From Bolinopsis microptera (lineage: Eukaryota > Ctenophora > Tentaculata > Lobata > Bolinopsidae), in assembly GCF_026151205.1 (NCBI RefSeq), contig NC_087078.1:11046175-11110174 (forward strand): a stretch of DNA of 64,000 nucleotides, given 5' to 3'. This document shows positions 8,826-55,735 of the stretch, piece by piece. The position numbers and the translations under genes were made by a program. Below the pieces are notes generated by a model, which saw only the letters and a list, made by a program, of their open reading frames with translations, was not told the DNA's origin and ran no database searches. Numbering within the stretch: position 1 is the stretch's first letter; the number at the start of each line of letters is the position of its first letter.

Positions 8826-8870
8826 CACTTTATTTTAAATCCAAGTAAGTAAATCCGTAAATCACGTCGA

Positions 8871-10233
8871 AGAAAAACGGAATAATAAAAACCACGTATT
8901 AGGAATATTTATCGATCTCTCTAAAGCATTTGATACCTTACCATTTGATATGCTACTTAAGAAACTTAGTAATTACGGAGTTAGAGGAAACGCACTAAAG
9001 CTGCTCTCCAGCTATCTAAATAATAGATACCAGTATGTTAGTGTACTTGGTGAAGAATCAGAGCCTCTCCCAGTTAAACTAGGCGTACCTCAAGGATCCG
9101 TTTTGGGCCCCTTGCTTTTTCTTATCTATATAAATGACATCTATAGATGTAGTACATTAGGAACATTTGTACTATTTGCAGATGACACAAACATCTTTGT
9201 AGCTGCTGAAACTAAGGAACAAGCATACAAAATAGCGAATGAAATTCTCGACTCTGTGTGCCAATATATGCGCCATAACCTACTGCACATTAATGTTAAA
9301 AAATCTTGTTACATGTACTTCTCGCCTACTAAACGTAAGACCATTGATAATACTGAAAATGACTTGAATCTAGAAATTGATGGGATCCCGATCAAACAGG
9401 TTACTGAAACGAAATTTCTAGGTGTAATTATTGATGACAAACTGAGTTGGACACCTCATATCGAGAAACTAACTAAGAAATTAAACAGCATATGTGGCCG
9501 TATTTATCGAATAAAAAACTCCCTCCCCAGCCAGCTGTACAAACAGATATACCACACTCTTTTTGAATCTCATCTAGGATACGGTATAACTGTATGGGGT
9601 GGTGTATCAATTAATAAGCTTTCACCACTATTCCTTGCACAGAAGAAATGTGTCCGAATCTTATTTGGGGACTCGGAAGCATTTAGCGACAAGTTTAAAA
9701 CTTGTTCTCGTAGCAGGCCAATCCAGTGCAGTATAAACAAGAAAGGTCAAATATCCAATGAATCAACTATACCTCACATTAAACCGTGTTCTATATGTAT
9801 CAGCTTGAGGAAGACTGGTGATAAACAAGCAAGGCCACATCGCTGCCAAATACTTGGGGCAGAATTCCACTCTAGAGAATCAACAAAACCTATTTTCCAA
9901 TCTAAGGAACTAATGACAGTACATAACATATATGGATACAGATGCATTACTGAAACAATGAAGATAGTGAAGAGTCATCAGCCCATATCCATGTATTCTC
10001 TCTTTAAGAAGTCTGAGCTCAGAGATGACAGATTTGTGACACCACACTCATCTCACAATTTCGCATATAAAGGGGCAAATTTATGGAATAGGTTTCTTGA
10101 GCAGTCAAATGCACGTGGTAAAATAGGTTCACTAGGTTCAATTAAATCCCGATTGAAGCTTTCTATCATGAAGGCTCAACACCAACCTGACAATATTAAC
10201 TGGCAGGACTTAAACTTCAACACTTTCCTATGA
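8871..10233 (+). mobile_element. 5'-truncated non-LTR retrotransposon (reverse transcriptase), copy 2
   Basis: An open frame runs from about 8871 to the stop at 10231-10233. It has RT motifs in order: LGIFIDLSKAFDTLPFDMLL (first catalytic Asp), GVPQGSVLGPLLFLIYINDI, then FADDTNIF (catalytic Asp pair). A thumb follows with FLGVIIDDKLSWTPHI, FESHLGYGITVWGG, and a Cys-rich insert (CSRSRPIQC ... PCSIC). The C-terminal part contains NLWNRFLE-like sequence. No stop interrupts about 450 codons, so the copy is fairly young. The N-terminal RT region, the endonuclease and ORF1 are missing. The motif set fits the jockey/CR1 group of LINEs; the exact clade is not determined. It inserted next to part B of the duplicated BTB exon. 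Confidence 0.92.
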
Positions 10234-11151: not shown

Positions 11152-12460
11152 TATATTTAGGCAAGTTTCCATAAACGATATTTTATGATCGTCGCCGATA
11201 ATCGCTTATTGAGCGCTTTTTCGGCGCTTTTTTTTAAAAAAAACCGTTTACAATCGCTTTTTTTACGATTATAAACGGTTCAAAAAAAATCGCTTATAAT
11301 CGACTATAATTGGTGTCATAATTCAAAAAAGCGCTTTTTTGAATTTAAAAGCGCTTATAAGCGCTTTTAAGCGCTTACTAGCGTCGCTGAGCGATTTGAA
11401 AGCGGTTTTCCAGTAGGATTGGCGCCAAAAACGGGTGGATAAGCGGTTGGCCGGATAAGCGATTCGTAGGCGCTTTTTTGAACCATTTATAAGCGATTAT
11501 AAGCGCTTATAATTGGGGTGCAATTTAGCTGTTTGTAAAGCGCAAATAAAGCGCTTATAAGCGCTTTTAAAATTGAGTCAGGAAAACGCTATATTACATC
11601 TTATAACCGCTTATAATCGATTATAAGCGTTTTTTTAGAAATCGCTTATAACGGCTAATTCATCGCTATTTCACCGCTTTTACCGCTTTTCCTATCATCC
11701 ATGGCCAGGTGAGCAGGAATTAAAAAGCGCTTATAAGCGCTTTTTCGATGCTGCCCCTAGCCTGGTCGGAACGGGGTAGTGCCCGGAATTTAAAAGCGCT
11801 TATAAGCGATTTCTCAATTCCCCTTAACCTGGTTGGAACTTTCATGTGCTTTTCTGAGCAACCTGGGGTGCACCGGCAGAGTCAGGATTTAAAAGCGCTT
11901 ATAGGCGCTTATGATCGCTTTTCTACCACTTTTCCTATCACCCATGGCATGGGTTGGCAAGAATTATAAAGCGCTTATAAGCGTTTTTCAATGCTGCCCC
12001 TAACCTGTTCGGAACGGGGGTGTGCCCGGAATTAAAAAGCGCTCATAAGCGCTTTTTAAATGCTGCCCCTAACCTGGTCGGAACTGGAAATCAGAGTGCC
12101 CGCTTATAAGTGCTTTTCTGAGCAACCTTGGGTGCACCGGCAGAGTCAGGATTTAAAAGCGCTTTTAGGCGCTTATGATTGCTTTTCTACCGCTTTTCCC
12201 ATCACCCATGGCCTGGTTGGCAAGAATTATAAAGCGCTTATAAGCGTTTTTTCAATGCTGCCCCTAACCTGGTCGGAACGGGGGAGTGCCTGGAATTAAT
12301 AAGCGCTTATAAGCGATTTCTCAATTCCCCTTAACCTGGTCGGAACTAGAAATCAGAGTGCCCGCTTATAAGTGCTTTTCTGTGCAACCTGGGGTGCACC
12401 GGCAGAGTCAGGATTTAGAAGCGCTTATAGGCGCTTATGATCGCTTTTCTACCGCTTTTC

Positions 12461-14088
12461 CCATTACCTAACCATGTGCTTTCGCGCCACTTCGGGCGCG
12501 CTTGTTTCACAAGTACGTCAAGAAGTGAGTGGGCGCGCGCTACTGCAAGCGCAAGGGCTCTGGATAGAGCAAATGGCACCCAGCTAGTGAGGCGAAACTC
12601 ACTGATCTTTCCAAAAAGGTATGACAAATTTGGTATTGTGAAAATTCTCACAGTCTCTAGAAAACAGTGTTACAAAAAAATTTTAAAATCTGAGCAAGTT
12701 TATTTTATCGTCCACCCCTAATCCAGAGCCGTTGAGCTTTGATCTAGCCGCCAACCCTCCATCGATTTTGGCAACCATATATTGGTTCCCAAAATTTCCC
12801 GCACTTTGCAGTTTCTGCAGTAGGGGTAATTAGGTATAAACTACAGTACAGCTGTACTTACAATCACATTCACAAGCATGCAAGCTCACCTGGTCCAATG
12901 AGCCTAGCGGGAAACAGAAAACGTTTTAATTAGTTTGTTAAACGAAGTGTCGTACGTCACCTTAAGATCGGGTGACAGGGTGCTTACAATTCGCGTTACT
13001 GGGCGGCGCTCAGCCTGTCATTCTGCATTCCGCCAAATCTTTATTCGGGCTGAGTGAATTACGACTTTCATCGCCCTAAAAAAGTGCGAATGCTCATTGG
13101 ACTAGCATTCACGTGATCGTTCAGAACCAATTACAGCCGCGCAAAAGATCACGTGCACGCCAACTACCAATAAAAAAGAAGTGACGTATGCACTACAAGA
13201 GCCGCGCGCTGAGTTAGATTGTAAAATCTGATTATTTGATTGTAAAATCGCATAAACACGCCTATTTGCGCGTTTTAGAGGGTTTAATTACGCCAGGCTA
13301 TGCTTATGAACATACTAGCTTGGGGTCACCTGGTAAAATTCGCGCCACTTGTTTCACAAGTAAAGAAAAGCATCAACTCGCCTTCGTGCGCGCGCCCGCA
13401 GTATTCATGTTGCCACGCGCGACGTCAGATTGCAGATATGAGGACAAAATTTTGACACCCAATATAAAATTGCTTAGATCCGTGCCCAGGCTGCAAGCAT
13501 TTTTTCGCACAAGTACCGCCTCTGTGTCACCGGGAGGTGGGGCGCCACTGCAAGCGTAAAAACCCGGGTACTTAAACATTAAAGCAATCCGATTATTTTA
13601 AGAGTCAATGTTAGCGCGCGCCGTATTTGTGCGAAGCGCAATGTTGAACGTGATTGCGAGAATTGACGGGTGACACTCGTAAAATATTTGTTCCATATAT
13701 TGGAGTCCAACTCGGCTTTTACTAATTCGCTCGCCCAAAAATTTCACGTGACTTTGGTTTTTATGGTTTTGCAGCCGTACAAAACGGTTTTACATAAATC
13801 CTAATCCCAACCCTAACCCTAACCATAACCCCGAAGTTAACCATAACCCGTTCCACAAGCCTAACCCTAACCCGGGCCCTAAACAATCGAATTCGTATTT
13901 TACTAGCCTAGCCTGTCACGTGACCAAAACGGATTTTTGCCCATAACTCTCCAGGGAAGCATTTTAACCCTACGTCATGGGGGGTGATTCGGAATCAGCG
14001 TCCAAAAATACACATATATAGATCATTTTCATGCCCCAAAGGGCCTTTTCACAAGAATTTCCTTAAAATTTGGGCAAGCGATTTAGTA
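12461..14088. repeat. Central spacer of the foldback element: nested repeat fragments
   Basis: The spacer holds a copy (about 12575-12722) of the block at 2305-2455 (GGCGAAACTCACTGATCTTT, then AATTTGGTATTGTGAAAATT). An end of the 1071 element follows at 12996-13045 (TTACTGGGCGGCGCTCAGCC), with its continuation displaced to about 13300-13345 by an insertion. Two CTTGTTTCACAAGTA copies lie at about 12508 and 13348. No gene is supported; the frame at 13236-13559 lies within repeat DNA. Confidence 0.55.
13798..13888 (-). repeat. Degenerate interstitial telomere-type repeats (TTAGGG on the minus strand)
   Basis: Several CCCTAA hexamers and variants (AACCCTAACCCTAACC, CATAACC, AAGCCTAACCCTAACCC) occur within about 90 bp. 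TTAGGG is the common animal telomere repeat. The run is short and degenerate and sits inside the foldback element, so it is an internal relic or chance simple sequence rather than a chromosome end. Confidence 0.5.
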
Positions 14089-15606
14089 GAAGCGGTAGAA
14101 AAGCGATCATAAGCGCCTATAAGCGCTTTTAAATCCTGATTCTGCCGGTGACCCCAGGTTGCACAGAAAAGCACTTATAACTATAAGCGGGCACACTGAT
14201 TTCCAGTTCTGACCAGGTTAAGGGGAATTGAGAAATCGCTTATAAGCGCAGCATTAAAAAAGCGCTAATGAGCGCTTTTTAATTCCGGGCACTCCCCCGT
14301 TCCGACCAGGTTAGTGGCAGCATTGAAAAAGCGCTTATAAGCGCTTTCTAATTCTTGCCAACCAGGCCATGGGTGATAGGAAAAGCGGTAGAAAAGCGAT
14401 CATATGCGCTTTCAATTCCGGGCACACCCCTGTTCCGAACAGGTTAGGGGCAGCATTGAAAAAACGCTTATAAGCGCTTTATAATTCTTGCCAACCAGGC
14501 CATGGGTGATAGAAAAAGCGGTAGAAAAGCGATCATAAGCGCCTATAAGCGCTTTTAAATCCTGACTCTGCCGGTGCACCCCAGGTTGCTCAGAAAATCA
14601 CATGCAAGTTCCGACCAGGTTAAGGGGAATTGAGAAATCGCTTATAAGCGCTTTTTAATTCCGGGCACTCCCCCGTTCCGACCAGGTTAGTGGCAGCATT
14701 GAAAAAGCGCTTATAAGCGCTTTTTAATTCCGGGCACACTCCTGTTCCGAACAGGTTAGGGGCAGCATTGAAAAAACGCTTATAAGCGCTTTATAATTCT
14801 TGCCAACCAGGCCATGGGTGATAGAAAAAGCGGTAGAAAAGCGATCATAAGCGCCTATAAGCGCTTTTAAATCCTGACTCTGCCTGTGCACCCCAGGTTG
14901 CTCATAAAAGCACATGAAAGTTCCAACCAGGTTAAGGGGAATTGAGAAATCGCTTATAAGCGCTTTTAAATTCCGGGCACTACCCCGTTCCGACCAGGCT
15001 AGGGGCAGCATCGAAAAAGCGCTTATAAGCGCTTTTTAATTCCTGCTCACCTGGCCATGGATGATAGGAAAAGCGGTAAAAGCGGTGAAATAGCGATGAA
15101 TTAGCTGTTATAAGCGATTTCTGAAAAAACGCTTATAATCGATTATAAGCGGTTGTAAGATGTAATATAGCGTTTTCCTGACTCAATTTTAAAAGCGCTT
15201 ATAAGCGCTTTATTTGCGCTTTACAAACAGCTAAATTGCACCCCAATTATAAGCGCTTATAATCGCTTATAAATGGTTCAAAAAAGCGCCTACGAATCGC
15301 TTATCCGGCCAACCGCTTATCCACCCGTTTTTGGCGCTAATCCTACTGGAAAACCGCTTTCAAATCGCTCAGCGACGCTAGTAAGCGCTTAAAAGCGCTT
15401 ATAAGCGCTTTTAAATTCAAAAAAGCGCTTTTTTGAATTATGACACCAATTATAGTCGATTATAAGCGATTTTTTTTTAACCGTTTATAATCGTAAAAAA
15501 AGCGATTGTAAACGGTTTTTTTTTAAAAAAGCGCCGAAAAAGCGCTCAATAAGCGATTATCGGCGACGATCATAAAATATCGTTTATGGAAACTTGCCTA
15601 TATTTA

Positions 15607-22100: not shown

Positions 22101-25100
22101 TGGCAATTTCCTGAGCCAAAGAACTCATCAAACCCTCTATTACATGGTAGGAACTGTCTCCTTTGTCCAAGATGCCATTTTCCAATTATTTTACTTTTGT
22201 AGTCAGCCTCTTTCAAGAGTTTAGGGAGGAGCTGCTCGTATTCGTGAATACCACCGACAATGGTCTGAGGAGTGTAAGCGTTCCTAGCATGAGCGTTCGT
22301 TGAGTAGAATCCATTTCTAATAGGTAGTCTCCCCGTCATCAGAGCTGCTCTTGAGGGGGAACAGAGCGGGTTAGCTGTGTAAAAGTCCGTGAACAACATA
22401 CCTTCTGCTGCCATCTTGTCGATAAAAGGGGTTTCCTTAGCCCAGTTTCCATTGATCCCCACGTCACCCCAACCCATATCATCCATCAGCATTATTATGA
22501 TGTTTGGACGATCAACCAGGCAGTGCGAAACTGTCAGGCATAGAACCATGCATGACAGTCGTGTTAACATTTTACTAAGGGGAGAAAATTGAGCTATAAT
22601 AATATTAAAGAAACTAACGTAAATATTGCGCAGCCAAGTGCCTTGAGGGCGAAAATAAGAATCCAGCAATGGTTAAGACTAAAGAGAGTGTTTTCATTCA
22701 GGATTCACCGAAATAAACGATCAGAAAACTAGAAACCCTCATGAACACTACATACTACGTTCATTGCATTGAATCAATTATCAACTGTGTCAAAAGATGC
22801 TTTGTAATGACGTATAAATAAACTACTAGATGGAAGCGTTAAAACAAGAACGAAAAGAATGTTGTGAAGAATGTTGTGATACAAAGTTGCTTTGTACCTG
22901 AAAGGTACAAAGCAACATTGTATCACATGTTTAGATGTTATTCGATACGGTACCTCCTTATCAATAAAGCAGTGATTAGCTTCTTATACTAAGCAAGTAA
23001 CATGACACACATACCTTATCAGGCGTTATTTGACCGGACATTGCGTGAACGAACATAATTTTGAACGGACATTAAAATGAACGCTTGAAGGGCGAAGGCA
23101 TTCAGTTAATGAATTTAATTTAACTAACTTGATCGACTTTATTTTAACGGACACATCTTACTATATATACACCACGGCAGATATAAACCAAAACTAAACA
23201 GAACTGTAGAATGATGTTTAGTTGCACTCAAATTATGGTTATGATATCATCCTCCTTCTACTTCTTCTTCTTTATAGTGATGTGTCAGTTTGACGGCCCC
23301 AACGTTAATGTGGCTCTTGCTATGTGTTGGTTCAGCCGAATTAATTATTATATAATCAAGTTTATTTTTCTCGTTAGTTGTCATCCGGCCAAACATTAAG
23401 CAACTTATATTGCAGTACCATTTACCATTTAGTATATCAAAATATGTCATTGTAATTTTGCATGGCTGAAATGTAACGCTTGATTTATATATATAATGAT
23501 TAATTGAATTTTCAAATAAAAAAAAAAAATGTGGCCATTATATTCTATTCTAACTTTGTGCACATATTAAAATGGAATATGTAGAATGTAAATATTATAG
23601 TGAAACAAAGGGAAACCACTATGTGTGAACCTCATACCAGGAGGTGTGATCAATGAAACTATATGTAAAGCGAGACGATATATTATATATATATAATATA
23701 TCTGTTACCATTTTACTGACATCAAGACATTAAATTTAATACGACTTTCCGTAAAAACCGTAAAAGATGTACCTCAAACCTTTTTGACTGGTTCAAATGC
23801 TTGACCTTCAAATCAGCATGAAAAAATAAAAAATTTGCCCAGGAATAAGAATTTTAGTGCCCAAAATTTGGACCCCAAGATGGTGTCAAAAACGCGAATT
23901 TGGTTCTAAAAAGAATTGTAAGAAACATAATTTCCAAATTTGATACAGTAAATACGTTTTCGTAATAAAATAACTCTACACAGACGAAGGAACAAGAAGA
24001 AAATATGATTTGTACGGAGAAGAAGGTTTGAAGGAGGACAACAAGCGACAGCAACAAAGAGAGAGACACAGTTATCAGTACTACGAGGACTTTGGTTAGT
24101 TCAACTTTAACGGATTGTAAAGCTGTTGTAACCTACACCTTGTTGTTATTATACAGCACATATTATAATATATAGCTATATATGGCACATTTCATCAGAT
24201 TGGACCATTCTTTTGAGTTATTCTTTTTTGATCAGCCTATTCGCAATAATATTATAGTTCAAAGATTAAATTGTCTTGTGATTATGTAATATGAAGCACA
24301 GTCGCTATGTATGTTGTATGTATGTATTCACCATTTGAATTTTGCAGATATATACGGTGACGATACGGAGATAATAACGTTGAGTTCAGGCGACTTTGCC
24401 ACCTCGGTCGATAACCGGGGGGAGAATGTGTGGTTTATTAACTTTTACTCTCCCCGCTGCTCCCACTGCCACGAGCTGGCCCCTGCTGTGAGTACCACTT
24501 TTGAGTGGGTTTTAAGAGGATTCTTGTTCAATATATTGTCCCTTTAGTTTCATCTACTGTTCAGTGTTCAGTGTCTTGAATTTGAGATAAATTATATGTT
24601 ATATCAGATTGGATTGAGTTCTCTTGAGTTCTCTCAAGTTCAAAACAACCAATGACCGCTGCTGACAGAGAAGAAAATTTTATGAATATAGAAATTATAT
24701 AGCATGAATATTTCTTTTCATTTTTACTTTTTTTCCCTCTTTTGGTACCAGATGTTCATAATTTGTGCCCAGTGCTCAAAATCAATGACAAAATTGCAAT
24801 TAAGATGCCAAGTTCTGATAAATACGTGCAGGTGTGGTCAACTTCTAGAGAACTACCACTGGCTGGTATTTAGGTACTGTTATCTTTTTGTTGCTCTGTA
24901 ATACTGCGCTATCCATAAAGCACACGGCGACACGGTGACTTAGTCTAGCTATGAAATATAATATAAGGTCACCATTAGTTATTCATGTTAAATACCCTTA
25001 CTTATTGTGAGTGAATAGATAACTGCCCCATTTCTTCGTAATGGTATCCCACCTGGGCTTCTTTTTTCACGTTTTCTCATCTATAAAAAACATAAAATAT

Positions 25101-28100: not shown

Positions 28101-31100
28101 AAAATCTTGTATTTTTATCTATAAAGAGTATGTTAAACTCAGTCCTTATCCTCGATATCAGTTACGCGGGTATCTTGCTCATTTGCTCAGGAGCTAACGA
28201 CCCATAATAGTGTACGCAATATTTTACTTTTAGTAATGCACGGTTTAAGCTTTAACAGAGCTGTGTTTAACGTGATCCTGCTGCCACCAATTTGGGAAAG
28301 TTCTGCCGTGCCGTACTTTAATGTTATGTTTTCTAGGAATACTCCTTCAAGTCATGTCATTGTTGCATACTCACTTTAACGAATCTACAGTTATTACGTC
28401 TTGCAATACAGGGTCCCAGGGACCACAGCGATACTGAGGACTTTAGTGATAAGTCACAATATGTCAATATCGTACTAAAAGGAGAGAGATGATATCTACC
28501 ATCCAGTAACTCCATTTCTCCTAAACGACCAGGACAGGACCAGTTAGATGGCAATATTTGCTTATTTATTAGTGATGTTACTCGCTTATTCCTTTGTGTT
28601 ATGAGCTAATTTCTCTCATCTCCACGTCTGTATGTTTACAGCGCTGCAAAGGGACGTACTGTTGAGTCTTGATGTTCATATCGTATAGTGCGTATTGTCG
28701 ACCGGGTGGTGTAGTGGTAACACGATCGCCTCCCAAGCAGAAGGCCCGGTTCAAATCCGGTCGGATGCAAGTCGGCCAGTTACCAAGCTGTGATTTGGTA
28801 CAGCTTCGGCTGGTGATACACACCCTCTGGCTCGTAGGACTAACCCCCCTACAGCTAGTATAGTGCCTCGGCACAGAGTGGCTTAGGGTTACTGAAAAGG
28901 AGATAAGCACCTCCGGCCATCCCAACGTTCGGGAGAGACCTGTTTCTTGACCCTTGTATCTTGTATAGTGCGTATTCTTTAGGTTGGAATTCGCGAATGC
29001 ATCGATTACTCTTTATTATGAATCTTGCAAGATACATACATTAAAATTCGAGCGTCAAATTAATTGAAATTTGTATGTATCAATCTTTTAAAAATTAAGC
29101 ATTGGATAAACCTTCGTAACATTGCTCATTTAAGAAATGTTTAGTTCTAAAGTTACAAAAGTAGTAGCTATTGAAAGTTCACAAAATTTGACCAAAATGA
29201 TTTTGTATCTGACAGCAAATACTTTTGCTTATTATAATTTTACGAAAATCATTTAATAACCTTGTTTGGGGACACCCTGTATTTACAAGCTTTCTTTAAG
29301 AATAGAAGTTTCAGTACCTCAGTCGCCAATTTCGGTCAAGGGGACGGCAGAAAAGCTCCTCTTCAAAAATCTTCCAAAATCTCTTTTTATATTGTGATGA
29401 TTTTCCGTTTATTAAAGCTTTCTTTGGGAATAGAAGATTGAGTACCTCGATCTTGTCTTGTGCTATCCTCAGTGACCTTGTAAGATGGTCATTCAAGAAA
29501 AATTCAGTCAAAACAGTGAAATTTTGGTTGCTGAAAGCTAAAATCTGAATATGTCTTAGGTAGGACATATTCAAAATTGTCATTCTGTCAACGTTTTCTC
29601 CGGATATACACACATTTCGTTATCAAATCTGAACGATTTATAGCAAAGATCTGGCAATTTGGTTAAGGTATTTGAGCGAGTTATCAAAATATGACTTGAG
29701 CGAACATGTCGGTTTGTGATTTTGACTGATGTTAAACTGGGCACCATGTTGACTGTGTAGAAACTAAATCTAATTGGGTTGCAGTTTTCGGACACTAGAA
29801 GAGTAGAAGAGAGTGTATAATGATAGGATTCTACTTCATATTATTATTGCGGATGGTTATTGGGTATCTATCATCTCGTCTGAAACCCATCATTGATTTC
29901 CATGTGAAACTTTGTCAAGATAAACAATTAGTAATAGTACAGTCTATGAAATCAAGCAGCTGTACTACATTTGTAGTATACGCCATGGAAATTATGTGGA
30001 AAAGGTAAATTAGAACTTTAGAAATTGCACGTGGAAGAGACAATGCACGTGCAAGAAAGGTCCCGGAAAGGTTGTCTGGAGACTACGTAACCTTTGCAGG
30101 TCTAAGTAGATCCTTAGCATATTAAAATGACCTGGTTACGTAATAGCAATTATGATAAGTATTAGACTGGTTAGTGTATATTATATATTCAAGCTGTTAT
30201 ATAATAAGCTGTTACTCTGCGACTCAACTTCATTGTGCTACTTTTATAGCCGAAAAGTGAAAAGTCACAGAGTTACTTTAATAACGATACCTTATTTTCA
30301 TTTTTCGTTAGTTTGCGCATTGCAGTTGTGTCGGAGCAATGCCTTATCAATGACGGGATACTGGTAGTGACAGGTTACAGCATTATCGTTGGTCTATTAA
30401 ACTAAGACCCCCTACATATTCGTAACACTGCCAACGTCACTGAAAGATCCTTCGGCAAAGTTGATGGTAGATCCCCCTCCCCCCCTTGATGACCAGGTCA
30501 CGAATTTATAGAGCAGTGAAGATAAGATACAGGACTATAACAGGAGTCTTAGTCATTCACGAGGATTGAGTAGCGAATCTTGCTCTACTAGATGGCTCTA
30601 TCGTGTTTAATAAGCCGAGTGCATCAATTCAAGAATAACCGGACGAATCTGTGAATAATTCAGCGACTGAATTCTTAAATTTCACCACTGTTAGCCCCCT
30701 TTAGGTCTTTCGGCAAGGTAGTAATTTGGTGGGCCTCTGTAATACCCACGTGGTAATTCCTATATAATTATACCTGTAGTATTTGCTCTGAGGTTAATGA
30801 ATGACCCTGATGTAAACTTGCCAACGGAGAAGATCCTGAGTCGGCATACCCGTAATTTGGTGCCTCTTCCGCAGCAACCACGTGCCTCTTCCGCAGTTAC
30901 CACGTGCTTCCTCCGCAGTAACCACGTGGCGTTTGGAGAACCATGTTGCAGTTTCTTAATTATGAGAGGGACTCATTTTTATAAGCGTCAGAGTGTCAGA
31001 CCGATTTGCAAGTCTTTTTGTTGTTGTTGTGACGGTGAGGCGTGTCAGAGGTTATCCTGACGTCTTGTCTGGAGACACTAGGTACTAGGGTGTCCTGCAG

Positions 31101-34100
31101 AGACACTAGGCACTGGTGTCTTCCCTGGTTGGCAAGTGTCTTTTGTTGGTGTATCCGCTGTGACGTATCGCTGATCGGTACCTACTACCTGATGTACTTT
31201 TCACTGCTAGAGGTCTTTGTTGCAGTTAAATGGTTGTTGATACATCCTATGTCAGATAGTTTAATATTCGTAATTCAATACAGACGAACTCGTGATATTG
31301 ACAACGACTTGTCAATTTGGCGGTTTCAAATACTTCAAACTTTCAAAGGATCCTAGATAGCGCTTAGTTTTATAAATCTCTAGATTTGATGTTAATAGCT
31401 TTGTTGCTGTATTTAAGGGGCTGCATGGAAAGGACTTGGAGCTGAATATAATTATTGTTAAAAACCCTTGCAGTTTTGTAACTCATCCATATTGTGACTA
31501 TAGGACCTTACAGCAGCAACTAATGGTCAATCCTTGAACATTAGTAAACCCAGCTAGTGTCATGATAGTCTATTTGAAAGGCTCCCTTTCATCAGACGTC
31601 AATTAAATAGATGTATTGATGAGGACCTGAAGTAGCAACTTTTGCGGTTCTAGCAGTGCAACTGCTTGGTATGTCACAGACATTTCATATACCGAGGATT
31701 TCACTCCTCATTCGTAGTCATTACATTGAAGGTCTAGGGCGGCCACATAATTATACATCATTATTCAAACTATTGTTATAAGATACAGGTAGTTGGCCCA
31801 AGTTAACGACCTGATAACTGATAAGACACATCCTCAGACTGTAAACTGGTGCCTCCCAGTGGGGAGAGGTGGGGAAGTCTCATCTTTAATTATAGACTTT
31901 AACTAGGAGGAATTATGGACCCGTAATTAGTCCATAATTATTATTCATGAGTTTATGATAAAACATATTGCCTCCACTTAGTTTTGTAGGATATATCAGA
32001 GGGTTTATTATTATCCGGGAAATATCTTTATTTGGTAAAGATAATGATACTGTGGGCTGAGTTCAGTAACTTAAACGTTTTGATAACTTGGATATAAGTT
32101 ATATCATGTATATTTCAGTCCAAACCCTGGAAACATGACATAAAGGATTTGTTTTACTTGTTGCATGAAAAGCACTAATATATACGAATAGTAGTCAGAT
32201 ATAGTCAGATATCAGCGACTAGATCTAGCAATGACCCCCTGCGTTATAAGCGTCAGTCACCCTGCGTTATAAGCGTCAGTCACCCTGCGTTATAAGCCTC
32301 AGTCACCCTGCGTTGTAAGCCTCAGTCACCCTGCGTTGTAAGCCTCAGTCACTAAGTTTGTTATTTGTGGTGGAGACCACACCTTGGTTTTCTGATTTTT
32401 GGTTTGCAAAGTGTTATAATTATATAATATGTTATCTATACATGTTATAAAGTGTTATAATGGCCTCCAGCTCGCACTTTTTTATCGTGTTAAATATCAA
32501 TTTTTATCGATTTTACTGATATAATTGTTCAACGCCTAGCTCCAATCGTTCTGAAAATAAATTGTAAAATAGATCTTAAACGCCAGTAGCCAATCAGCGC
32601 TTTATATTCTCAAACATTTGATATTTGTGCACTTTGTTGCCAAGTCAGCCACATTTAGTCAGAATTCAGCCTCTCAAAGTGGAACTAACACTTTCCATAA
32701 CACAACAGATATTATGTGCCCTTCTTTATAGTAGCAAGATATGATACCTTCATATTGTTACATATTACATTGTCATATTGTTAACAAAGTCTCAACCAAC
32801 TTGTCTATATGTCTACATCCTGTAGCTTGATAAAGTAGACCTTTGTGATAAGTGACGTATGACTTTTTAGGCTACAGTGGCACAAAGGGTAGTTTATATT
32901 TGTTGTTGCCTCAGCAAACTGCTGGAAGTTTGTTGCTGTCTTATAATTTACAACCTTTTCGTTGTTGTGTCTTTTTGCATAGAATATAATTAAGTCTCTA
33001 CTAATTTTATTCTTTTGGATCTAGTTTGTAGATCTAATACCCATTTTTAAACTTGTCATTATTTTACAACTCTCGATTGTTACCACTGACTATGTGTTAA
33101 ATTACGCTAACATTCAGCGCCTGTTACCATGACAACAAACTGTACTACACAAGTGTGCCCTGTTCCGGAGATAGACAGATTCCTAGGATGTTTCTCATTC
33201 TTCTGTACCTTAGTCGGAACTCCTCTCAACCTCATCTCTTTCTTCATGTTCAGGAACCAGAAGAGAAGTGCTAACTACCTCGTCCACATGGTCATAGCGC
33301 TCTGTGATTCCTGGATCTCTTTTAACGGCTACCCCTACGCAGTCACCATGTTGAGCGGCAACCGACAACCTCTCCTCTTCAGTGACAAAGTGTTCCGGAC
33401 ACTGTGGGCCATGACCTGGGACCCCTTCATCTTCTTCTCCATCTACCTGGTCTTAGTGTTGAGTGTTCTGAGGACAGTGAAGCTGGCTTGTAGGGTGATT
33501 GTAGTGCAGGAGAGACACGTGGTGGTAGCGCTGGTAGCGTACGCTACATTCCTGTTGACACGTGTTATTGTGGCAGTTAGCTTCCTGGGAGAGTTCATTA
33601 TTCCTGACTTCAATACCTACCCTTTCTTCAAACACAAGGAAGGTTACCCGACAGTAGAGCTTTATCTCTCTATCACCTGCTTGGTCTTCCCTCCAATACC
33701 CATTGTCACTTCAGCGCTTGTTTCGGCGTTTGTGTTGCGCTCGAGGCGCAACCAGCAATCCAAGAACCGTAAGTTGCGCCACCAAGCAACTGTGACTGTT
33801 CTCATGTTCACGGGCCTCTACCTAATTTGCAACATCCCCGTCCTTCTGGCTGCTATAAGATTCGTGATCGTGCTGGCGACAAACTTCAAAAGAGACATCT
33901 TTAGAAAGCACGGTGTCCCAGACCCCAAGACCACCCCAGTCTTCCTTGAACACTACCTCTGGCCTCTAACCTACTTAGTCCTGGTCCAGACAAACGCACT
34001 GCTCAACCCCCTGGTGTATTTCATCAGGATGAGCTGGTTCAGGAAGGGAGTTCAGGAGATGTTCGTGAGACGAGGACTGATTACCGCAGCTGTGGCACCT

Positions 34101-37100
34101 CTGGAAACAGTTGATGAAGTGTCACGTGATGGGGGAACTAGTTTTAAGAGGACTAGAGGGAGTGAGAGAGGGTGTGTTGTGGTGGCTAATCCTTTGACAG
34201 GTGGTACTGCTGAGACTGCTGAGATGTGAGAGGTGGTACTGCTGAGACTGCTGATATGTGAGAGGTGATAGTGCTGAGACTGCTGAGATGTGAGAGGTGG
34301 TATTGCTGAGACTGCTGAGATGTGAGAGGTGGTACTGCTGAGACTGCTGAGATGTGAGAGGTGGTACTGCTGAGACTGCTGAGATGTGAGAGGTGGTACT
34401 GTGAGACTGCTGAGATGTGAGAGGTGGTACTGCTGAGACTGCTGAGATGTGAGAGGTGGTACTGCTGAGACTGCTGAGATGTGAGAGGTGGTACTGCTGA
34501 GACTGCTGAGATGTGAGAGGTGGTACTGCTGAGACTGCTGAGATGTGAGAGGTGGTACTGCTGAGACTGCTGAGATGTGAGAGGTGGTACTGCTGAGACT
34601 GCTGAGATGTGAGAGGTGGTACTGCTGAGACTGCTGATATGTGAGAGGTGGTACTGCTGAGACTGCTGAGATGTGAGAGGTGGTACTGCTGAGACTGCTG
34701 AGATGTGAGAGGTGGTACTGCTGAGACTGCTGAGATGTGAGAGGTGGTACTGTGAGACTGCTGAGATGTGAGAGGTGATAGTGCTGAGACTGCTGAGATG
34801 TGAGAGGTGGTACTGCTGAGACTGCTGAGATGTGAGAGGTGGTACTGCTGAGACTGCTGAGATGTGAGAGGTGGTACTGCTGAGACTGCTGAGATGTGAG
34901 AGGTGGTACTGCTGAGACTGCTGAGATGTGAGAGGTGGTACTGTGAGACTGCTGAGATGTGAGAGGTGGTACTGCTGAGACTGCTGAGATGTGAGAGGTG
35001 GTACTGCTGAGACTGCTGAGATGTGAGAGGTGGTACTGCTGAGACTGCTGAGATGTGAGAGGTGGTACTGCTGAGACTGCTGAGATGTGAGAGGTGGTAC
35101 TGCTGAGACTGCTGAGATGTGAGAGGTGGTACTGCTGAGACTGCTGAGATGTGAGAGGTGGTACTGCTGAGACTGCTGAGATGTGAGAGGTGGTACTGCT
35201 GAGACTGCTGAGATGTGAGAGGTGGTACTGCTGAGATGTGAGATGTGAGAGGTGGTACTGCTGAGATGTGAGAGGTGGTACTGCTGAGACTGCTGAGATG
35301 TGAGAGGTGGTACTGCTGAGACTGCTGAGATGTGAGAGGTGGTACTGCTGAGACTGCTGAGATGTGAGAGGTGGTACTGCTGAGACTGCTGAGATGTGAG
35401 AGGTGGTACTGCTGAGACTACTGAGATGTGAGAGGTGGTACTGCTGAGACTGCTGAGATGTGAGAGGTGGTACTGCTGAGACTGCTGAGATGTGAGAGGT
35501 GATAGTGCTGAGACTGCTGAGATGTGAGAGGTGGTACTGCTGAGACTGCTGAGATGTGAGAGGTGGTACTGCTGAGACTGCTGAGATGTGAGAGGTGGTA
35601 CTGCTGAGACTGCTGAGATGTGAGAGGTGGTACTGCTGAGATGTGAGAGGTGGTACTGCTGAGACTGCTGAGATGTGAGAGGTGGTACTGCTGAGACTGC
35701 TGAGATGTGAGAGGTGGTACTGCTGAGACTGCTGAGATGTGAGAGGTGGTACTGCTGAGACTGCTGAGATGTGAGAGGTGGTACTGCTGAGACTGCTGAG
35801 ATGTGAGAGGTGGTACTGCTGAGACTGCTGAGATGTGAGAGGTGGTACTGCTGAGACTGCTGAGATGTGAGAGGTGATAGTGCTGAGACTGCTGAGATGT
35901 GAGAGGTGGTACTGCTGAGACTGCTGAGATGTGAGAGGTGGTACTGCTGAGACTGCTGAGATGTGAGAGGTGGTACTGCTGAGACTGCTGAGATGTGAGA
36001 GGTGGTACTGCTGAGACTGCTGAGATGTGAGAGGTGGTACTGCTGAGACTGCTGAGATGTGAGAGGTGATAGTGCTGAGACTGCTGAGATGTGAGAGGTG
36101 GTACTGCTGAGACTGCTGAGATGTGAGAGGTGGTACTGCTGAGACTGCTGAGATGTGAGAGGTGGTACTGCTGAGACTGCTGAGATGTGAGAGGTGGTAC
36201 TGCTGAGACTGCTGAGATGTGAGAGGTGGTACTGCTGAGACTGCTGAGATGTGAGAGGTGGTACTGCTGAGACTGCTGAGATGTGAGAGGTGGTACTGCT
36301 GAGACTGCTGAGATGTGAGAGGTGGTACTGTGAGACTGCTGAGATGTGAGAGGTGGTACTGCTGAGACTGCTGAGATGTGAGAGGTGGTACTGCTGAGAC
36401 TGCTGAGATGTGAGAGGTGGTACTGCTGAGACTGCTGAGATGTGAGAGGTGGTACTGCTGAGACTGCTGAGATGTGAGAGGTGGTACTGCTGAGATGTGA
36501 GATGTGAGAGGTGGTACTGCTGAGATGTGAGAGGTGGTACTGCTGAGACTGCTGAGATGTGAGAGGTGGTACTGCTGAGACTGCTGAGATGTGAGAGGTG
36601 GTACTGCTGAGACTGCTGAGATGTGAGAGGTGATAGTGCTGAGACTGCTGAGATGTGAGAGGTGGTACTGCTGAGACTGCTGAGATGTGAGAGGTGGTAC
36701 TGCTGAGACTGCTGAGATGTGAGAGGTGGTACTGCTGAGACTGCTGAGATGTGAGAGGTGGTACTGCTGAGACTGCTGAGATGTGAGAGGTGGTACTGTG
36801 AGACTGCTGAGATGTGAGAGGTGATAGTGCTGAGACTGCTGAGATGTGAGAGGTGGTACTGCTGAGACTGCTGAGATGTGAGAGGTGGTACTGCTGAGAC
36901 TGCTGAGATGTGAGAGGTGGTACTGCTGAGACTGCTGAGATGTGAGAGGTGGTACTGCTGAGATGTGAGATGTGAGAGGTGGTACTGCTGAGATGTGAGA
37001 GGTGGTACTGCTGAGACTGCTGAGATGTGAGAGGTGGTACTGCTGAGACTACTGAGATGTGAGAGGTGGTACTGCTGAGACTGCTGAGATGTGAGAGGTG

Positions 37101-40100
37101 GTACTGCTGAGACTGCTGAGATGTGAGAGGTGGTACTGTGAGACTGCTGAGATGTGAGAGGTGGTACTGCTGAGACTGCTGAGATGTGAGAGGTGGTAGT
37201 GCTGAGACTGCTGAGATGTGAGAGGTGGTACTGCTGAGACTGCTGAGATGTGAGAGGTGGTACTGCTGAGACTGCTGAGATGTGAGAGGTGGTACTGCTG
37301 AGACTGCTGAGATGTGAGAGGTGGTACTGCTGAGACTGCTGAGATGTGAGAGGTGGTACTGCTGAGACTGCTGAGATGTGAGAGGTGGTACTGCTGAGAC
37401 TGCTGAGATGTGAGATGTGAGAGGTGGTACTGCTGAGATGTGAGATGTGAGAGGTGGTACTGCTGAGATGTGAGAGGTGGTACTGCTGAGACTGCTGAGA
37501 TGTGAGAGGTGGTACTGCTGAGACTGCTGAGATGTGAGAGGTGGTACTGCTGAGACTGCTGAGATGTGAGAGGTGGTACTGCTGAGACTGCTGAGATGTG
37601 AGAGGTGATAGTGCTGAGACTGCTGAGATGTGAGAGGTGGTACTGCTGAGACTGCTGAGATGTGAGAGGTGGTACTGCTGAGACTGCTGAGATGTGAGAG
37701 GTGGTACTGCTGAGACTGCTGAGATGTGAGAGGTGGTACTGCTGAGACTGCTGAGATGTGAGAGGTGGTACTGTGAGACTGCTGAGATGTGAGAGGTGAT
37801 AGTGCTGAGACTGCTGAGATGTGAGAGGTGGTACTGCTGAGACTGCTGAGATGTGAGAGGTGGTACTGCTGAGACTGCTGAGATGTGAGAGGTGGTACTG
37901 CTGAGACTGCTGAGATGTGAGAGGTGGTACTGCTGAGACTGCTGAGATGTGAGAGGTGGTACTGCTGAGATGTGAGATGTGAGAGGTGGTACTGCTGAGA
38001 TGTGAGAGGTGGTACTGCTGAGACTGCTGAGATGTGAGAGGTGGTACTGCTGAGACTGCTGAGATGTGAGAGGTGGTACTGCTGAGACTGCTGAGATGTG
38101 AGAGGTGGTACTGCTGAGACTGCTGAGATGTGAGAGGTGGTACTGCTGAGACTGCTGAGATGTGAGAGGTGATAGTGCTGAGACTGCTGAGATGTGAGAG
38201 GTGGTACTGCTGAGACTGCTGAGATGTGAGAGGTGGTACTGCTGAGACTGCTGAGATGTGAGAGGTGGTACTGCTGAGACTGCTGAGATGTGAGAGGTGG
38301 TACTGCTGAGACTGCTGAGATGTGAGAGGTGGTACTGTGAGACTGCTGAGATGTGAGAGGTGATAGTGCTGAGACTGCTGAGATGTGAGAGGTGGTACTG
38401 CTGAGACTGCTGAGATGTGAGAGGTGGTACTGCTGAGACTGCTGAGATGTGAGAGGTGATAGTGCTGAGACTGCTGAGATGTGAGAGGTGGTACTGCTGA
38501 GACTGCTGAGATGTGAGAGGTGATAGTGCTGAGACTGCTGAGATGTGAGAGGTGGTACTGCTGAGACTGCTGAGATGTGAGAGGTGGTACTGCTGAGACT
38601 GCTGAGATGTGAGAGGTGGTACTGCTGAGACTGCTGAGATGTGAGAGGTGGTACTGCTGAGACTGCTGAGATGTGAGAGGTGGTACTGCTGAGACTGCTG
38701 AGATGTGAGAGGTGGTACTGCTGAGATGTGAGATGTGAGAGGTGGTACTGCTGAGATGTGAGAGGTGGTACTGCTGAGACTGCTGAGATGTGAGAGGTGG
38801 TACTGCTGAGACTGCTGAGATGTGAGAGGTGGTACTGTGAGACTGCTGAGATGTGAGAGGTGGTACTGCTGAGACTGCTGAGATGTGAGAGGTGGTACTG
38901 CTGAGACTGCTGAGATGTGAGAGGTGGTACTGCTGAGACTGCTGAGATGTGAGAGGTGATAGTGCTGAGACTGCTGAGATGTGAGAGGTGGTACTGCTGA
39001 GACTGCTGAGATGTGAGAGGTGGTACTGCTGAGACTGCTGAGATGTGAGAGGTGGTACTGCTGAGACTGCTGAGATGTGAGAGGTGGTACTGCTGAGACT
39101 GCTGAGATGTGAGAGGTGGTACTGTGAGACTGCTGAGATGTGAGAGGTGGTACTGTGAGACTGCTGAGATGTGAGAGGTGGTACTGCTGAGACTGCTAAG
39201 ATGTGAGAGGTGGTACTGCTGAGACTGCTGAGATGTGAGAGGTGGTACTGTGAGACTGCTGAGATGTGAGAGGTGGTACTGTGAGACTGCTAAGATGTGA
39301 GAGGTGGTACTGCTGAGACTGCTGAGATGTGAGAGGTGGTACTGCTGAGACTGCTGAGATGTGAGAGGTGGTACTGCTGAGACTGCTGAGATGTGAGAGG
39401 TGGTACTGCTGAGACTGCTGAGATGTGAGAGGTGGTACTGCTGAGACTGCTGAGATGTGAGAGGTGGTACTACTGAGACTGCTGAGATGTGAGAGGTGGT
39501 ACTGCTGAGACTGCTGAGATGTGAGAGGTGGTACTGCTGAGACTGCTGAGATGTGAGAGGTGATAGTGCTGAGACTGCTGAGATGTGAGAGGTGGTACTG
39601 CTGAGACTACTGAGATGTGAGAGGTGGTACTGCTGAGACTGCTGAGATGTGAGAGGTGGTACTGCTGAGACTACTGAGATGTGAGAGGTGGTACTGCTGA
39701 GACTGCTGAGATGTGAGAGGTGGTACTGCTGAGACTGCTGAGATGTGAGAGGTGGTACTGTGAGACTGCTGAGATGTGAGAGGTGGTACTGCTGAGACTA
39801 CTGAGATGTGAGAGGTGGTACTGCTGAGACTGCTGAGATGTGAGAGGTGGTACTGCTGAGACTACTGAGATGTGAGAGGTGGTACTGCTGAGACTGCTGA
39901 GATGTGAGAGGTGATAGTGCTGAGACTGCTGAGATGTGAGAGGTGGTACTGCTGAGACTACTGAGATGTGAGAGGTGGTACTGCTGAGACTGCTGAGATG
40001 TGAGAGGTGGTACTGCTGAGACTACTGAGATGTGAGAGGTGGTACTGCTGAGACTGCTGAGATGTGAGAGGTGGTACTGCTGAGACTGCTGAGATGTGAG

Positions 40101-43100
40101 AGGTGGTACTGCTGAGACTGCTGAGATGTGAGAGGTGGTACTGCTGAGACTGCTGAGATGTGAGAGGTGGTACTGCTGAGACTGCTGAGATGTGAGAGGT
40201 GGTACTGTGAGACTGCTGAGATGTGAGAGGTGGTACTGCTGAGACTGCTGAGATGTGAGAGGTGGTACTGTGAGACTGCTGAGATGTGAGAGGTGGTACT
40301 GCTGAGACTGCTGAGATGTGAGAGGTGGTACTGCTGAGACTGCTGAGATGTGAGAGGTGGTACTGCTGAGACTGCTGAGATGTGAGAGGTGGTACTGCTG
40401 AGACTGCTGAGATGTGAGAGGTGGTACTGCTGAGACTGCTGAGATGTGAGAGGTGGTACTGTGAGACTGCTGAGATGTGAGAGGTGGTACTGCTGAGACT
40501 GCTGAGATGTGAGAGGTGGTACTGCTGAGACTGCTGAGACTGCTGAGACTGCTGAGATGTGAGAGGTGGTACTGCTGAGACTGCTGATATGTGAGAGGTG
40601 GTATTGCTGAGACTGCTGAGATGTGAGAGGTGATACTGCTGAGACTGCTGAGATGTGAGAGGTGGTACTGCTGAGACTATTGAGATGTGAGAGGTGGTTC
40701 TGTGAGACTATTGAGATGTGAGAGGTGGTACTGTGAGACTATTGAGAAATTCGTTAAAGTTATGCACAAAATGTGAATTTCTTTGTTGTTTGAAAGAGAA
40801 ATCATTAGCCGCTTACAAAATTTGTGTTTGCTGCTTCGCACAGAAGTCAGAACTTTTCCTATTTATCTTATATTGTGTTTAAGGAAAGCTGGTTAAACGC
40901 TAGAACAGTAATTATGTGATCATTTTAAAGAAACTAAATTTTATCTTTACTGTGTATATATTTGAATATTAATTAAGATGCTACGTACTTTAAACATAGA
41001 ATTTATATATTTTCTTTGTCAAATATTTTTACAACCCCAATAAAACAAAATATGATATTGACATTTGACGGTAATAATTTCAAGATAAATGACGTCACAG
41101 CGCGGCTCATCTAAAAACTACCGAATCTTTTACCTACATGGCTATTTAACCATAACGATTGAATATTTTTACCTGACTAACAATGACCTCCTCAGTGGCG
41201 AGCACTGGCTAAGGAGCTGGAAGGAGTGGTACGTATAGGGGCTGTGAACTGTGCGGATGCCAGAGATCTGTGTCACCATCTGAGGGGTTACCCATCTCTT
41301 TATCTCTACCGGCCTAGTGGTATGTATAATTAGATCTTCTAATTATGTATAATTACAAGTCTGAGATAATACCTTGTGGTTTTATGAATATGAGGATTGG
41401 AATAAAGTGATTTAGACTGATCATGAAAGCCAAAAAATTTGTCAATTATAATGTGAAAAAGGAGCCATTTTGTTAAGCTGATCTTGGAGTACTTCAGAAT
41501 GTTTATAGTTTTTATTGACATATAATAACATTTCTCCAATGCCTATTATGCGGTAAATATGAATGCCCAATATTGAGACTGCCATATTTAAAAACAAAAC
41601 CGTTACACAGGAAGAGAACAATACAACGGTGAGCGAGACATGGAGTCCATGATGAGCTACGTGATGGACAGTCTGCCTCCTTCTCCTGTTATAGCACTGT
41701 TTGAACCTTCCTTCAAGAAGGCTGTATCAGAGATTGAGCGTCCCTGGGTTGTTAGTTTCTGCTACAAGAACGACGGTCAGTTTGCTATATTAATATATCG
41801 TACTACCATAGCATTAAATTTACCAAAGCAACAAATTTACTAACGGTTTTCGAAGAATCAAGTTTCAGGATAGCAGTCAGTTCTTACAAAGTACCAGCTG
41901 CCATGTTATTTAACATAGTTCAGTTTAGTAGTGTTTACTGTTTAGTAGACATGGGGTTATTTAACACTAACTGTTGTATCCCACCAGATTGTCCGTCCCG
42001 CTCATCTCTAGACAGAGTATCCATCTCCCTTAAAAACATGGTCTATGTTGGGTACGTGTCATGTGACGAGAATCTTAAGATATGTGACTTACTTCCCATA
42101 GAATCTTCTGGATTACTCTTCATTCAGGGAGCTAAACCTACCATGAGCCTTGCTACTATTCTTAAAGATGCTGTGGTAAGTTAAATATGATGTGTTTTCT
42201 ACTCAACACACCTATATTAATTAGGAAGACGGAACTATGAGATACTAGTGGGTGGTGTGGTGTATAATTCGTTATATTGGAATTAGTTAGGGAATATGTA
42301 ATTATCTTCCGGATATTCAAGGAGGTTATTAGTTTCATAGAGTTGAACCGTTTACTGAGAACACATTTTGCTAATAATACGAGAGAAATACACATAATAT
42401 TATATCGCAAGAACAAAGCTTTCAACTAGCGGGTACCTAGTAATGTTATATTGTAACATTGAACATCTCGAGAATCACAATATCTCTTTTTCAGAAAATC
42501 GACACGTTGGTTACGCAAGAGATTGTTTTCACTGTGCTCAAAAATCTGCCGGAGCCTGACCTTATCACTGAAGATGATTTTGATGTGAGAAATATTTTCA
42601 GTTAAAATGGACTTTTTACTTTTGAATACGTGGCTCGAGTTTTACATATCAACAATAAAGAGTTATCATACGTAGAATATATAATTTTTTTCGATGATGG
42701 TTTCAATGTTATGTCCATTGTTTCAGACGTTGCACGATAAAGCTATGGCAGCTGACATAGATCCACAGATAGTTATATTTAGTAAAAGTGGTGTCCCTCT
42801 GGAGTTCATCAAACTGGGAGGTCAACTCAAGGACCAAAAGGTACGTGGGTAATACACAATGTTTCAGATATAAAGCTTTATTTCACCAAAATCACAGTAA
42901 GCTTTTATAAAATGTATTCTTGCCTAAAATAGCTCAGTGGGCCTAATTATGCTGACACACTTTCAAAATACGTTAACTGGACCACGCGATGACATTTGCA
43001 TTGACCCTTCGGCGCAAACCGCCAGTCAATACGATTTTGCGCGCGCGCGTTTTATGCACCGATTCTGGACACGTCGTCAAATTTATCACCTTTAACGTTT

Positions 43101-48119: not shown

Positions 48120-49860
48120 CCCAACCCACAACCCAACCCACCCCTAACCCCTTAAATAGTTTGGATCGGTTATTTTAGATTAGAGAATTGGCATTGGGAG
48201 AAATGAGATGCATCTAATCATTATCAGACAGGTAGAATTCAGCGTGACTATCGTTTGGATCTGTGGGTAGCATTTCCGACCATAGGTGATCCTTAAGTTT
48301 GGCCTTGAAGATATCAGGACAGCTATGGTCTCTTATTTCGAGAGGAAGTTTATTCCAGAGCAGATGTGTCCGATAAAAGAATGATTTCTTAAGGAGACTG
48401 CTATAACACTGTGTTTGAACAAGAGTCGTTACATAACTTAGGCTGTCATGGTGACATGATCTTAAGCGTGTGCTTCCTTTGTATAGTTGTAAGTAATTAG
48501 GAAGCTCTTGTGTGCATACACCATTGACTATTTTGTGAAACAAGGTCAGGTCATTCAATTCAAACCTCTTGCTGAGAGGAAGGATTTTCAATTGATGACA
48601 CTTGTAAGTATAGTTTTCAAAGGACTGATAGCTTGTGAATTCCTCATCAAAAATCCACTTAATACACCTTTTTTGAAAAGCATCCATCTTATCTAGTTGT
48701 GTTTTATTAAATGGACGCCAGATTTGGGAACAGTGTTCAAATTGACTTCTAACAAGTGCAAGGTATAAATTTCTTCTTCGTCTCTCATCTTGGACAAATG
48801 AGCAAGTGCGTTTCAGCAGCCCAAATTTTTGGTTAGCTTTGGACAATATTTTAGTTATGTGTTCTTCAAAACGAAAGCCCTGATTTATAACGACTCCAAG
48901 ATCTGTTTCCGTACTGGTGTAATCTAAGGGAGTATTACCGAGCAAATATTGAAATCTGATAAATGGAATAGGTAATATCCTACTGCTGAATTTCTTTCCA
49001 GGAATAGAGAGGACTTTACACTTTGATGGATGGAATCGCATCTTATTTTCTATGCTCCAAGAATTAAGTTCATTTATGTTATTCTGAAGTGTGCAATAAT
49101 CGTTGTATGATTTAATAGGACTCCATATTTTCGTGTCATCAGCATAAAGTACCAAATTTGTGCCTGAACTTAATCTCATGGGAAGATCGTTTATGAATAA
49201 GACAAATAGAATGGGACCTAGGACGGAGCCTTGAGGAACTCCAGACAAAACAGGTTTGATCTCTGAATGTCTACCATCAACTAAAACACATTGTTCCCGT
49301 TCACTAAGATAGTTGGTTAGGAATTTGAGTAGCCTTCCTTCAATATTAAAGACGAGTTTAAGTTTCTTAAGAATAAGATCATGATTTACAGAATCAAAGG
49401 CTTTAGCAAAATCAAAGTAAATGATGTCTACACTTATAGTCGAACAGTCATTGAGGGATAGCGTGACACTGTCAATAAAGTTAATCATATTTGTGGTACA
49501 AGATCTGTCTCCAAGAAATCCATGCTGTCTATCATCAAGAAGATGCATTGTTTTATTCAAGAGTTCCTGTTTAATAAGGCGTTCAAATGTTTTCATTATA
49601 AGACTAGTTAGGGAAATCGGCTGATAATTCTCAATGTCCTCCTTACTACCCTTCTTGTGAACCGGAACTACGTGAGCCAGCTTCCATTCAGTTGGAATAA
49701 TACCGGAGTTATATGATATCTCAAATAAAATTGAAAGTGGGCAAGCGAGACTACCAGCACAGTTCTTCAGTATCTTACCATGGATACCGTCAGGGCCGCA
49801 AGCTTTGTTGTTTGTTAGAATTAATGTTCCTATAAATATAAATATGCGTGCTGCTTTTAG
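48120..49860 (-). mobile_element. 5'-truncated CR1/jockey-type non-LTR retrotransposon (reverse transcriptase)
   Basis: The minus-strand frame reads from about 49860 to the stop at 48214. It is open through NNKACGPDGIHGKILKNCAG, TEWKLAHVVPVHKKGS, NYQPISLTSLIMKTFERLI, FDFAKAFDSVNHDLILKKL, SGVPQGSVLGPILFVLFIND and LYADDTKIW (catalytic YADD). It continues to a thumb and C-terminal region (LGVVINQGFRFEEHI, SQFEHCSQIW, LLWNKLPLEIRD). The usual first-Met start at 49596 is inside the RT, not the true start. Endonuclease and ORF1 are absent. It is a different family from the two copies at 5780-10233. The region 48120-48150 has CCCAACCC-type 3' sequence. No stop interrupts about 550 codons, so it inserted fairly recently. 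Confidence 0.92.
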
Positions 49861-49980
49861 TAACTTAGAGTTTTTGTTAGCTGTGGCTCTGAGCTCTCAC
49901 AATGACCTAGTGCTCAACCGACATACGGGTTTTGTGTCCAGGATCCCTTTTCAGCTCCTTTCTCCAGTTATGAAGTGTTG

Positions 49981-55540: not shown

Positions 55541-55735
55541 TATGTACCCTAATATAGTAATATGTACCCTAAAATGTACCTTAATATGTACCTTAATATG
55601 TACCTTATTATGTACCCTAAATGTACCTTATTATGTACCTTATTATGTACCTTAATATGTACCTTAATATGTACCTTGATATGTACCCTAATATGTACCC
55701 TAAAATGTACCTTATTGTGTACCTTATTCTGTTAC
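55540..55735 (+). repeat. ~12-bp tandem repeat (TTAATATGTACC)n
   Basis: About fourteen imperfect copies of a ~12-bp unit with TATGTACCTTA / TATGTACCCTA variants. The open frames across it (MYLNMYLNMY...) are a by-product of a 12-bp period and are not genes. Confidence 0.92.

Follow-up and report, generated by a model that had tools for sequence, protein, structure and literature searches.

We analysed a stretch of 64,000 nucleotides (hereafter the window) from the ctenophore Bolinopsis microptera (NCBI RefSeq assembly GCF_026151205.1, contig NC_087078.1), which corresponds to C7:11046175-11110174 of a genome assembly of 264.65 Mb in 232 contigs. The window holds the gene for a predicted rhodopsin-like G-protein-coupled receptor (GPCR), and within the last codons of that gene begins a very long array of 32-bp tandem units. 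Receptor and array both lie within an intron of DNAJC10 and share that gene's strand. The features of this locus, in window coordinates, are the following.

24290-24490, plus strand: stretch containing the DNAJC10 exon that precedes the host intron, with the splice donor GTGAGT at 24488
33129-34229, plus strand: intronless gene for a predicted rhodopsin-like GPCR, 366 amino acids, first ATG to TGA
34193-40747, plus strand: 32-bp minisatellite, about 207 copies, 6555 bp
34193-34224, plus strand: first copy of the unit, inside the coding sequence (TTTGAC...GAGA), identical to the unit at 30 of 32 positions
34227-34229, plus strand: stop codon in use, probably created where copies 1 and 2 meet
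40660-40747, plus strand: last three units, divergent and carrying ATTGAG, thought to preserve older sequence
40747-40776, plus strand: putative displaced native tail KFVKVMHKM and its TGA, unconfirmed by paralogues
41039-41044, plus strand: putative AATAAA/ATTAAA polyadenylation signal, the only A[AT]TAAA in 34196-41400, 292 bp past the array
41187-41321, plus strand: DNAJC10 exon downstream of the host intron

Genome-wide, the receptor protein has matches at 114 places including its own locus; of 469 candidates, 112 were scored. It matches no Pfam family itself, and its matches to PDB are weak, with melanocortin receptor 5 at a best E of 0.017. Five of seven scanned paralogues, all retrieved by the window protein, match Pfam 7tm_1 (PF00001), and it is by way of these paralogues that the protein is assigned to the rhodopsin-like GPCRs. 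From the 114 places we surveyed 49 paralogues, comprising 29 loci (L014-L042) with 1.5-kb flanks and a further 20 with 3-kb flanks; their ends were taken as the first in-frame stops, introns disregarded.

On either side of the receptor and its array, pieces of DNAJC10 match adjacent residues of the solved protein (3apo_A), up to residue 154 for 24290-24490 (best E 2.4e-13) and from residue 153 for 41187-41321 (best E 1.2e-26). This bears out the placing of the array in a DNAJC10 intron by a first-pass annotation of the same DNA. The host intron runs from 24488 to about 41189, or 16.7 kb, of which the array makes up 39%, and the accompanying claim that array copy number alters the length of this intron also holds.

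Tandem Repeats Finder (TRF) places the array at 34195-40747 with a period of 32, 206.9 copies, 95% matches and a score of 11810, in line with the roughly 200 repeats of a 32-bp unit described earlier. At the left edge two further bases are in phase beyond this call, which moves the start to 34193. The unit consensus is GAGGTGGTACTGCTGAGACTGCTGAGATGTGA, and the TGA that had been ascribed to each unit is present three times in this consensus. Cutting at GAGGTG from 34230 onwards, which excludes the first copy as it starts with CAGGTG, gives 206 pieces: 172 of 32 bp, 18 of 31, 7 of 23, 6 of 30, 2 of 39 and 1 of 50. Exact consensus is found in 138 of the 206, and mean identity to consensus across the 172 pieces of 32 bp is 99.1%. 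Variation among pieces consists of substitutions or of changes in short inner repeats: a single base is lost in the 31-bp pieces, one 9-bp ACTGCTGAG is lost in the 23-bp pieces, and the 50-bp piece has gained two 9-bp blocks. One of the two 39-bp pieces is the final piece, which is partly 3' flank.

At up to three mismatches the unit has 174 forward matches genome-wide, a complete count of which the first 100 places were itemised, and 174 in the window alone. At the same tolerance the whole genome holds no reverse-strand match, no copy outside the window and no match to a reversed control. The array is a real minisatellite, very long and restricted to one locus, where a receptor gene ends; its units stand head to tail, their period of 32 bp lies within the range of roughly 10-100 bp typical of minisatellites, and they are not dispersed as satellite DNA is.

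The order of variants records something of how the array grew. A word of 13 units that includes at least three variants is present twice; repeated words of this length arose in 2 of 500 shuffles (p 0.004). In all six cases, moreover, a 23-bp variant comes after the 30-bp one. The recurring word and the fixed pairing point to duplication of blocks of units. A regular higher-order repeat was considered and rejected, as lag autocorrelation of the variants stays within shuffles (best lag 8; shuffle 95% level 8, maximum 10) and the repeated-word test alone exceeds them.

Homology with the unit begins on the left at TTTGAC (34193), unit position 0, and stops on the right after GAGA (40747), unit position 31, so that the number of copies is whole. 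The adjoining 32-bp blocks in the flanks agree with the unit at 11 (left) and 12 (right) of 32 positions, where background 32-bp blocks average 7.9 matches (s.d. 2.5) and 15% of them reach 11. The edge phases are complementary, as is required when one 32-bp segment is duplicated in place, and the segment that can be read from both edges is TTTGACAGGTGGTACTGCTGAGACTATTGAGA (32 bp). When the flanks are joined, they read in frame through an open tail longer than the present one. A single duplication of the 32-bp segment yields a protein ending ...TIEI*, in which the TGA arises at the junction without further mutation. Across the array all three plus-strand frames are closed, none being open for more than 22 codons. 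Together with the junction stop, these closed frames mean that after the first duplication the protein would be unaffected by later copies, in agreement with the earlier proposal that copy-number change cannot extend it.

We conclude that the array was probably born from the gene itself, by an out-of-frame tandem duplication of 32 bp near the 3' end of the coding sequence. On the evidence of the edges, a segment close to the end of the receptor (TTTGACAGG...ATTGAGA) would have been duplicated in tandem. As 32 is not a multiple of three, this first duplication would have shifted the frame, set a TGA at the junction and ended the protein eight residues earlier. Copy number would have been neutral for the protein from then on, and this sealing of the protein would explain why so long an array is tolerated. 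The array would then have grown to about 207 copies as single units, and also blocks of them, were duplicated, most likely through unequal exchange or slippage, with older variants surviving at the 3' end. The native tail, together with its stop and the poly(A) signal, would now lie beyond the array.

The first-pass annotation had offered two options, that the array arose from the gene tail or that it invaded the gene and replaced the C-terminus. Of these, gene origin is the better supported, and replacement of the C-terminus, with eight residues fewer, appears to have accompanied it. The same annotation took the unit to be derived from the receptor's final codons plus their stop. The first copy does encode the receptor's final residues, with the stop following at 34227-34229. 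The order of events was probably the reverse, since the flanks imply a longer earlier tail and a TGA made at the junction; the order first proposed seems to have been followed in paralogue L037.

Several observations weigh against birth by out-of-frame duplication. Among the 47 paralogue tails with which it was compared (L050 and L061 were left out as they have no NPxxY anchor), the joined tail finds no significant likeness (shuffle test p 0.61), and a genome search with it retrieves this locus only. Twelve codons without a stop would be expected by chance, and we estimate that agreement of the edge phases alone, with a slack of a base or two, would occur by chance about once in ten. The first copy has GCT for ATT, and the unit has changed from TTTGAC to TGTGAG (two more substitutions), such that later homogenisation must be assumed. 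Additionally, the unit of L037 holds a stop, and the simpler route of the earlier annotation thus also seems to occur in the family. The present tail has some likeness to the NPLAAATEET of three paralogues (L044, L049 and L052, more weakly L048), a nonsignificant one by shuffling (p 0.16 over the final 32 residues and 0.33 over the entire tail). The best-scoring tail is that of L038, which is without the NPL motif and likewise nonsignificant (p 0.058 over the final 32 residues, 0.134 over the entire tail), and the motif is missing from the three closest paralogues.

As a genome pattern with the right spacing, NPLxxxTxET has 19 matches against 11 in a reversed control. The excess consists of the window's own match and six that begin AATCCACTAGC, among which L048, L049 and L052 are verified GPCR tails. 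We rejected a conserved NPLxxxTxET tail motif, because the pattern was chosen after the tails had been seen and the shuffle test, which we prefer, is nonsignificant.

Three other explanations were weighed. The right edge of the array lies between GAGA and AATTCG, not after ATGTGA, in a phase complementary to that of the left edge, and ATTGAG is present in the last three units but not in the first copy. These features make it unlikely that the gene already ended in its present tail, that the unit included the stop, and that the array then grew in the 3' untranslated region (UTR) with later erosion of the right edge, even though the first copy and the bases following it read exactly as the present tail and stop, and paralogue L037 looks alike, with 38 copies of a 22-bp unit ending at its own stop. 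We regard as highly improbable the insertion at the gene end of a minisatellite from elsewhere that displaced the C-terminus. Abrupt edges are the one positive sign of such an invasion, whereas the absence of the unit, at up to three mismatches, from the rest of the genome leaves it no source, the edge phases are complementary and the frame is open across the joined flanks. That the array is real and its length an artefact of collapse or expansion is scarcely credible: tandem arrays are a known assembly problem and a single assembly was examined, but the 18 kinds of unit stand in uneven order, the 3' edge is divergent and both flanks lie inside a single 20.1-Mb contig.

Birth from the gene can also be considered against the tails of the paralogous receptors. 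Counting arrays with a TRF score of at least 200 and a period of at least 7, coverage in the 49 paralogues is 2.6% of 5' flanks, 0.3% of the seven-transmembrane part, 18% of tails and 7.6% of 3' flanks; these receptors are not independent, as they include some near-identical pairs, and overlapping flanks (L043/L055, L021/L022) are counted twice. Large arrays of other units lie over the tail or the stop in five of the 49.

L015, tail array: 18 copies of a 42-bp unit, in frame, giving a 14-residue repeat present about 18 times
L032, tail array: 16 copies of a 33-bp unit, in frame, giving an 11-residue repeat present about 16 times
L028: 9.5 copies of a 13-bp unit, running across the stop
L037: 38 copies of a 22-bp unit, whose end is at the stop
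L045, 3852-4203: 5.6 copies of a 62-bp unit, running across the stop

An array covers the stop codon in 3 of the 49 paralogues and the start codon (the frame's first ATG) in none. The five tail or stop arrays compare with 4.9 expected at the density of the 3' flanks (p 0.61) and 1.7 expected at that of the 5' flanks (p 0.0095). Because arrays are as frequent in tails as in 3' flanks, and more frequent there than in 5' flanks, tails seem to be unprotected rather than targeted, and the idea that arrays target stop codons was dropped. The arrays within tails have periods that are multiples of three (42 in L015, 33 in L032), and those that cross or hold a stop have periods that are not (32 in the window, 13 in L028, 22 in L037 and 62 in L045), although these numbers are small.

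The array of L045 is, from its sequence, a clear in-family case of gene origin. Its unit contains RMPPLRGYIRRIL, the conserved sequence that follows the seventh transmembrane helix in paralogues (for example RMPALREFIRGIL in L035), and carries the conserved RMPxLRxxIRxIL tail. As the unit is conserved receptor sequence, the array was made from receptor coding sequence. Like the window array, that of L045 has a period that is not a multiple of three, starts in the receptor tail, has the stop in its second copy and has an open stretch beyond it. Unlike the window array, that of L045 is short, and its unit is still recognisable as conserved receptor sequence. Beyond it one frame reads on to ...NNNVESTF*, perhaps the native terminus, with a PDZ-like motif. 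This stretch has no significant likeness to paralogue tails (best L060, p 0.67), although its ERRRGPNYV resembles ENRRPPNNV of L040.

Ends resembling class I PDZ ligands ([ST]x[VILMF]-end, such as ETEL, DTRL and ETSV) are found in 16 of the 49 receptors (L014-L062), some of which are close relatives of one another. Draws from the 47 NPxxY-anchored tails gave a mean of 2.1 such ends and a maximum of 8 in 2000 draws. Tail arrays could delete or shift these ends. We advance with considerable doubt a broader proposal, that out-of-frame tail duplications recur in this genome, replacing the peptide at the C-terminus, often a PDZ-like ligand, at a single stroke and sealing the protein against repeat growth, that in-frame ones lengthen the tail, and that C-termini in this family evolve largely by the birth of minisatellites.

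Minisatellites and other variable number tandem repeats (VNTRs) are known in the last exon or 3' UTR of genes, as in human CEL (33 bp, coding) and SLC6A3 (3' UTR), in arrays far shorter than the approximately 207 copies in the window. The window array resembles these in having tandem units of tens of base pairs at a gene end. It differs in that its unit is not a multiple of three, it starts in the coding sequence and the stop lies at the first junction. The exon 3 VNTR of DRD4 consists of 48-bp units, in frame, in a loop of a GPCR. The window minisatellite likewise lies in a GPCR gene, but at the C-terminus and out of frame; the in-frame arrays of L015 and L032 are closer to DRD4. Among the papers listed by our literature searches, judged by titles and abstract openings, none concerned such a receptor-tail array, and we do not claim that it is unpublished.

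The window array is ordinary in kind, and its recurrence in sister receptors is the interesting part. With both edges seemingly preserved, it offers a readable example of how a minisatellite may be born inside a coding sequence. Frame logic would account for the tolerance of the array, and sister genes show similar arrays that are smaller and in other frames.

If the signal at 41039 is used, the predicted 3' UTR of the receptor mRNA measures about 6.8 kb, and array makes up nearly all of it. The earlier claim that the array changes the receptor 3' UTR holds only as a prediction from this signal, the sole A[AT]TAAA, 292 bp past the array. The sense strand is G-rich, with a GC skew of +0.55 in the array against 0.009 elsewhere in the window, and would favour R-loops.

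Two possible functions of the array itself were considered and rejected. On the reverse strand an open frame extends over as many as 1669 amino acids and has no Pfam match at E 0.001. As 35% of 20000 shuffled 32-mers are stop-free on the reverse strand in all frames, we attribute this openness to chance rather than to antisense coding. A 320-nt sense RNA of the array folds more stably than 100 shuffled versions (z -3.97), which can happen with repeats that contain self-complementary parts, and the array has no match in Rfam; the window's single Rfam match is a tRNA at 28705.

That match belongs to a tRNA-Gly-like sequence at 28699-28768 on the plus strand (ARAGORN, anticodon ccc), which scores 29.3 bits with the Rfam tRNA model, barely over the cut-off of 29, and is perhaps a tRNA-derived short interspersed nuclear element. 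By eye, long open frames resembling the reverse transcriptase of long interspersed nuclear elements were noted at 5791-6939 (minus strand), 8839-10233 (plus strand) and 48214-49896 (minus strand). Repeat clusters at 11846-12468 and 14258-15043, related by eye and with AAAAGCGCTTATAAGCGCTTTT-like palindromes, are possibly part of a mobile element or a local satellite. A 12-bp array at 55558-55726 has 14.2 copies, with several frames open on both strands.

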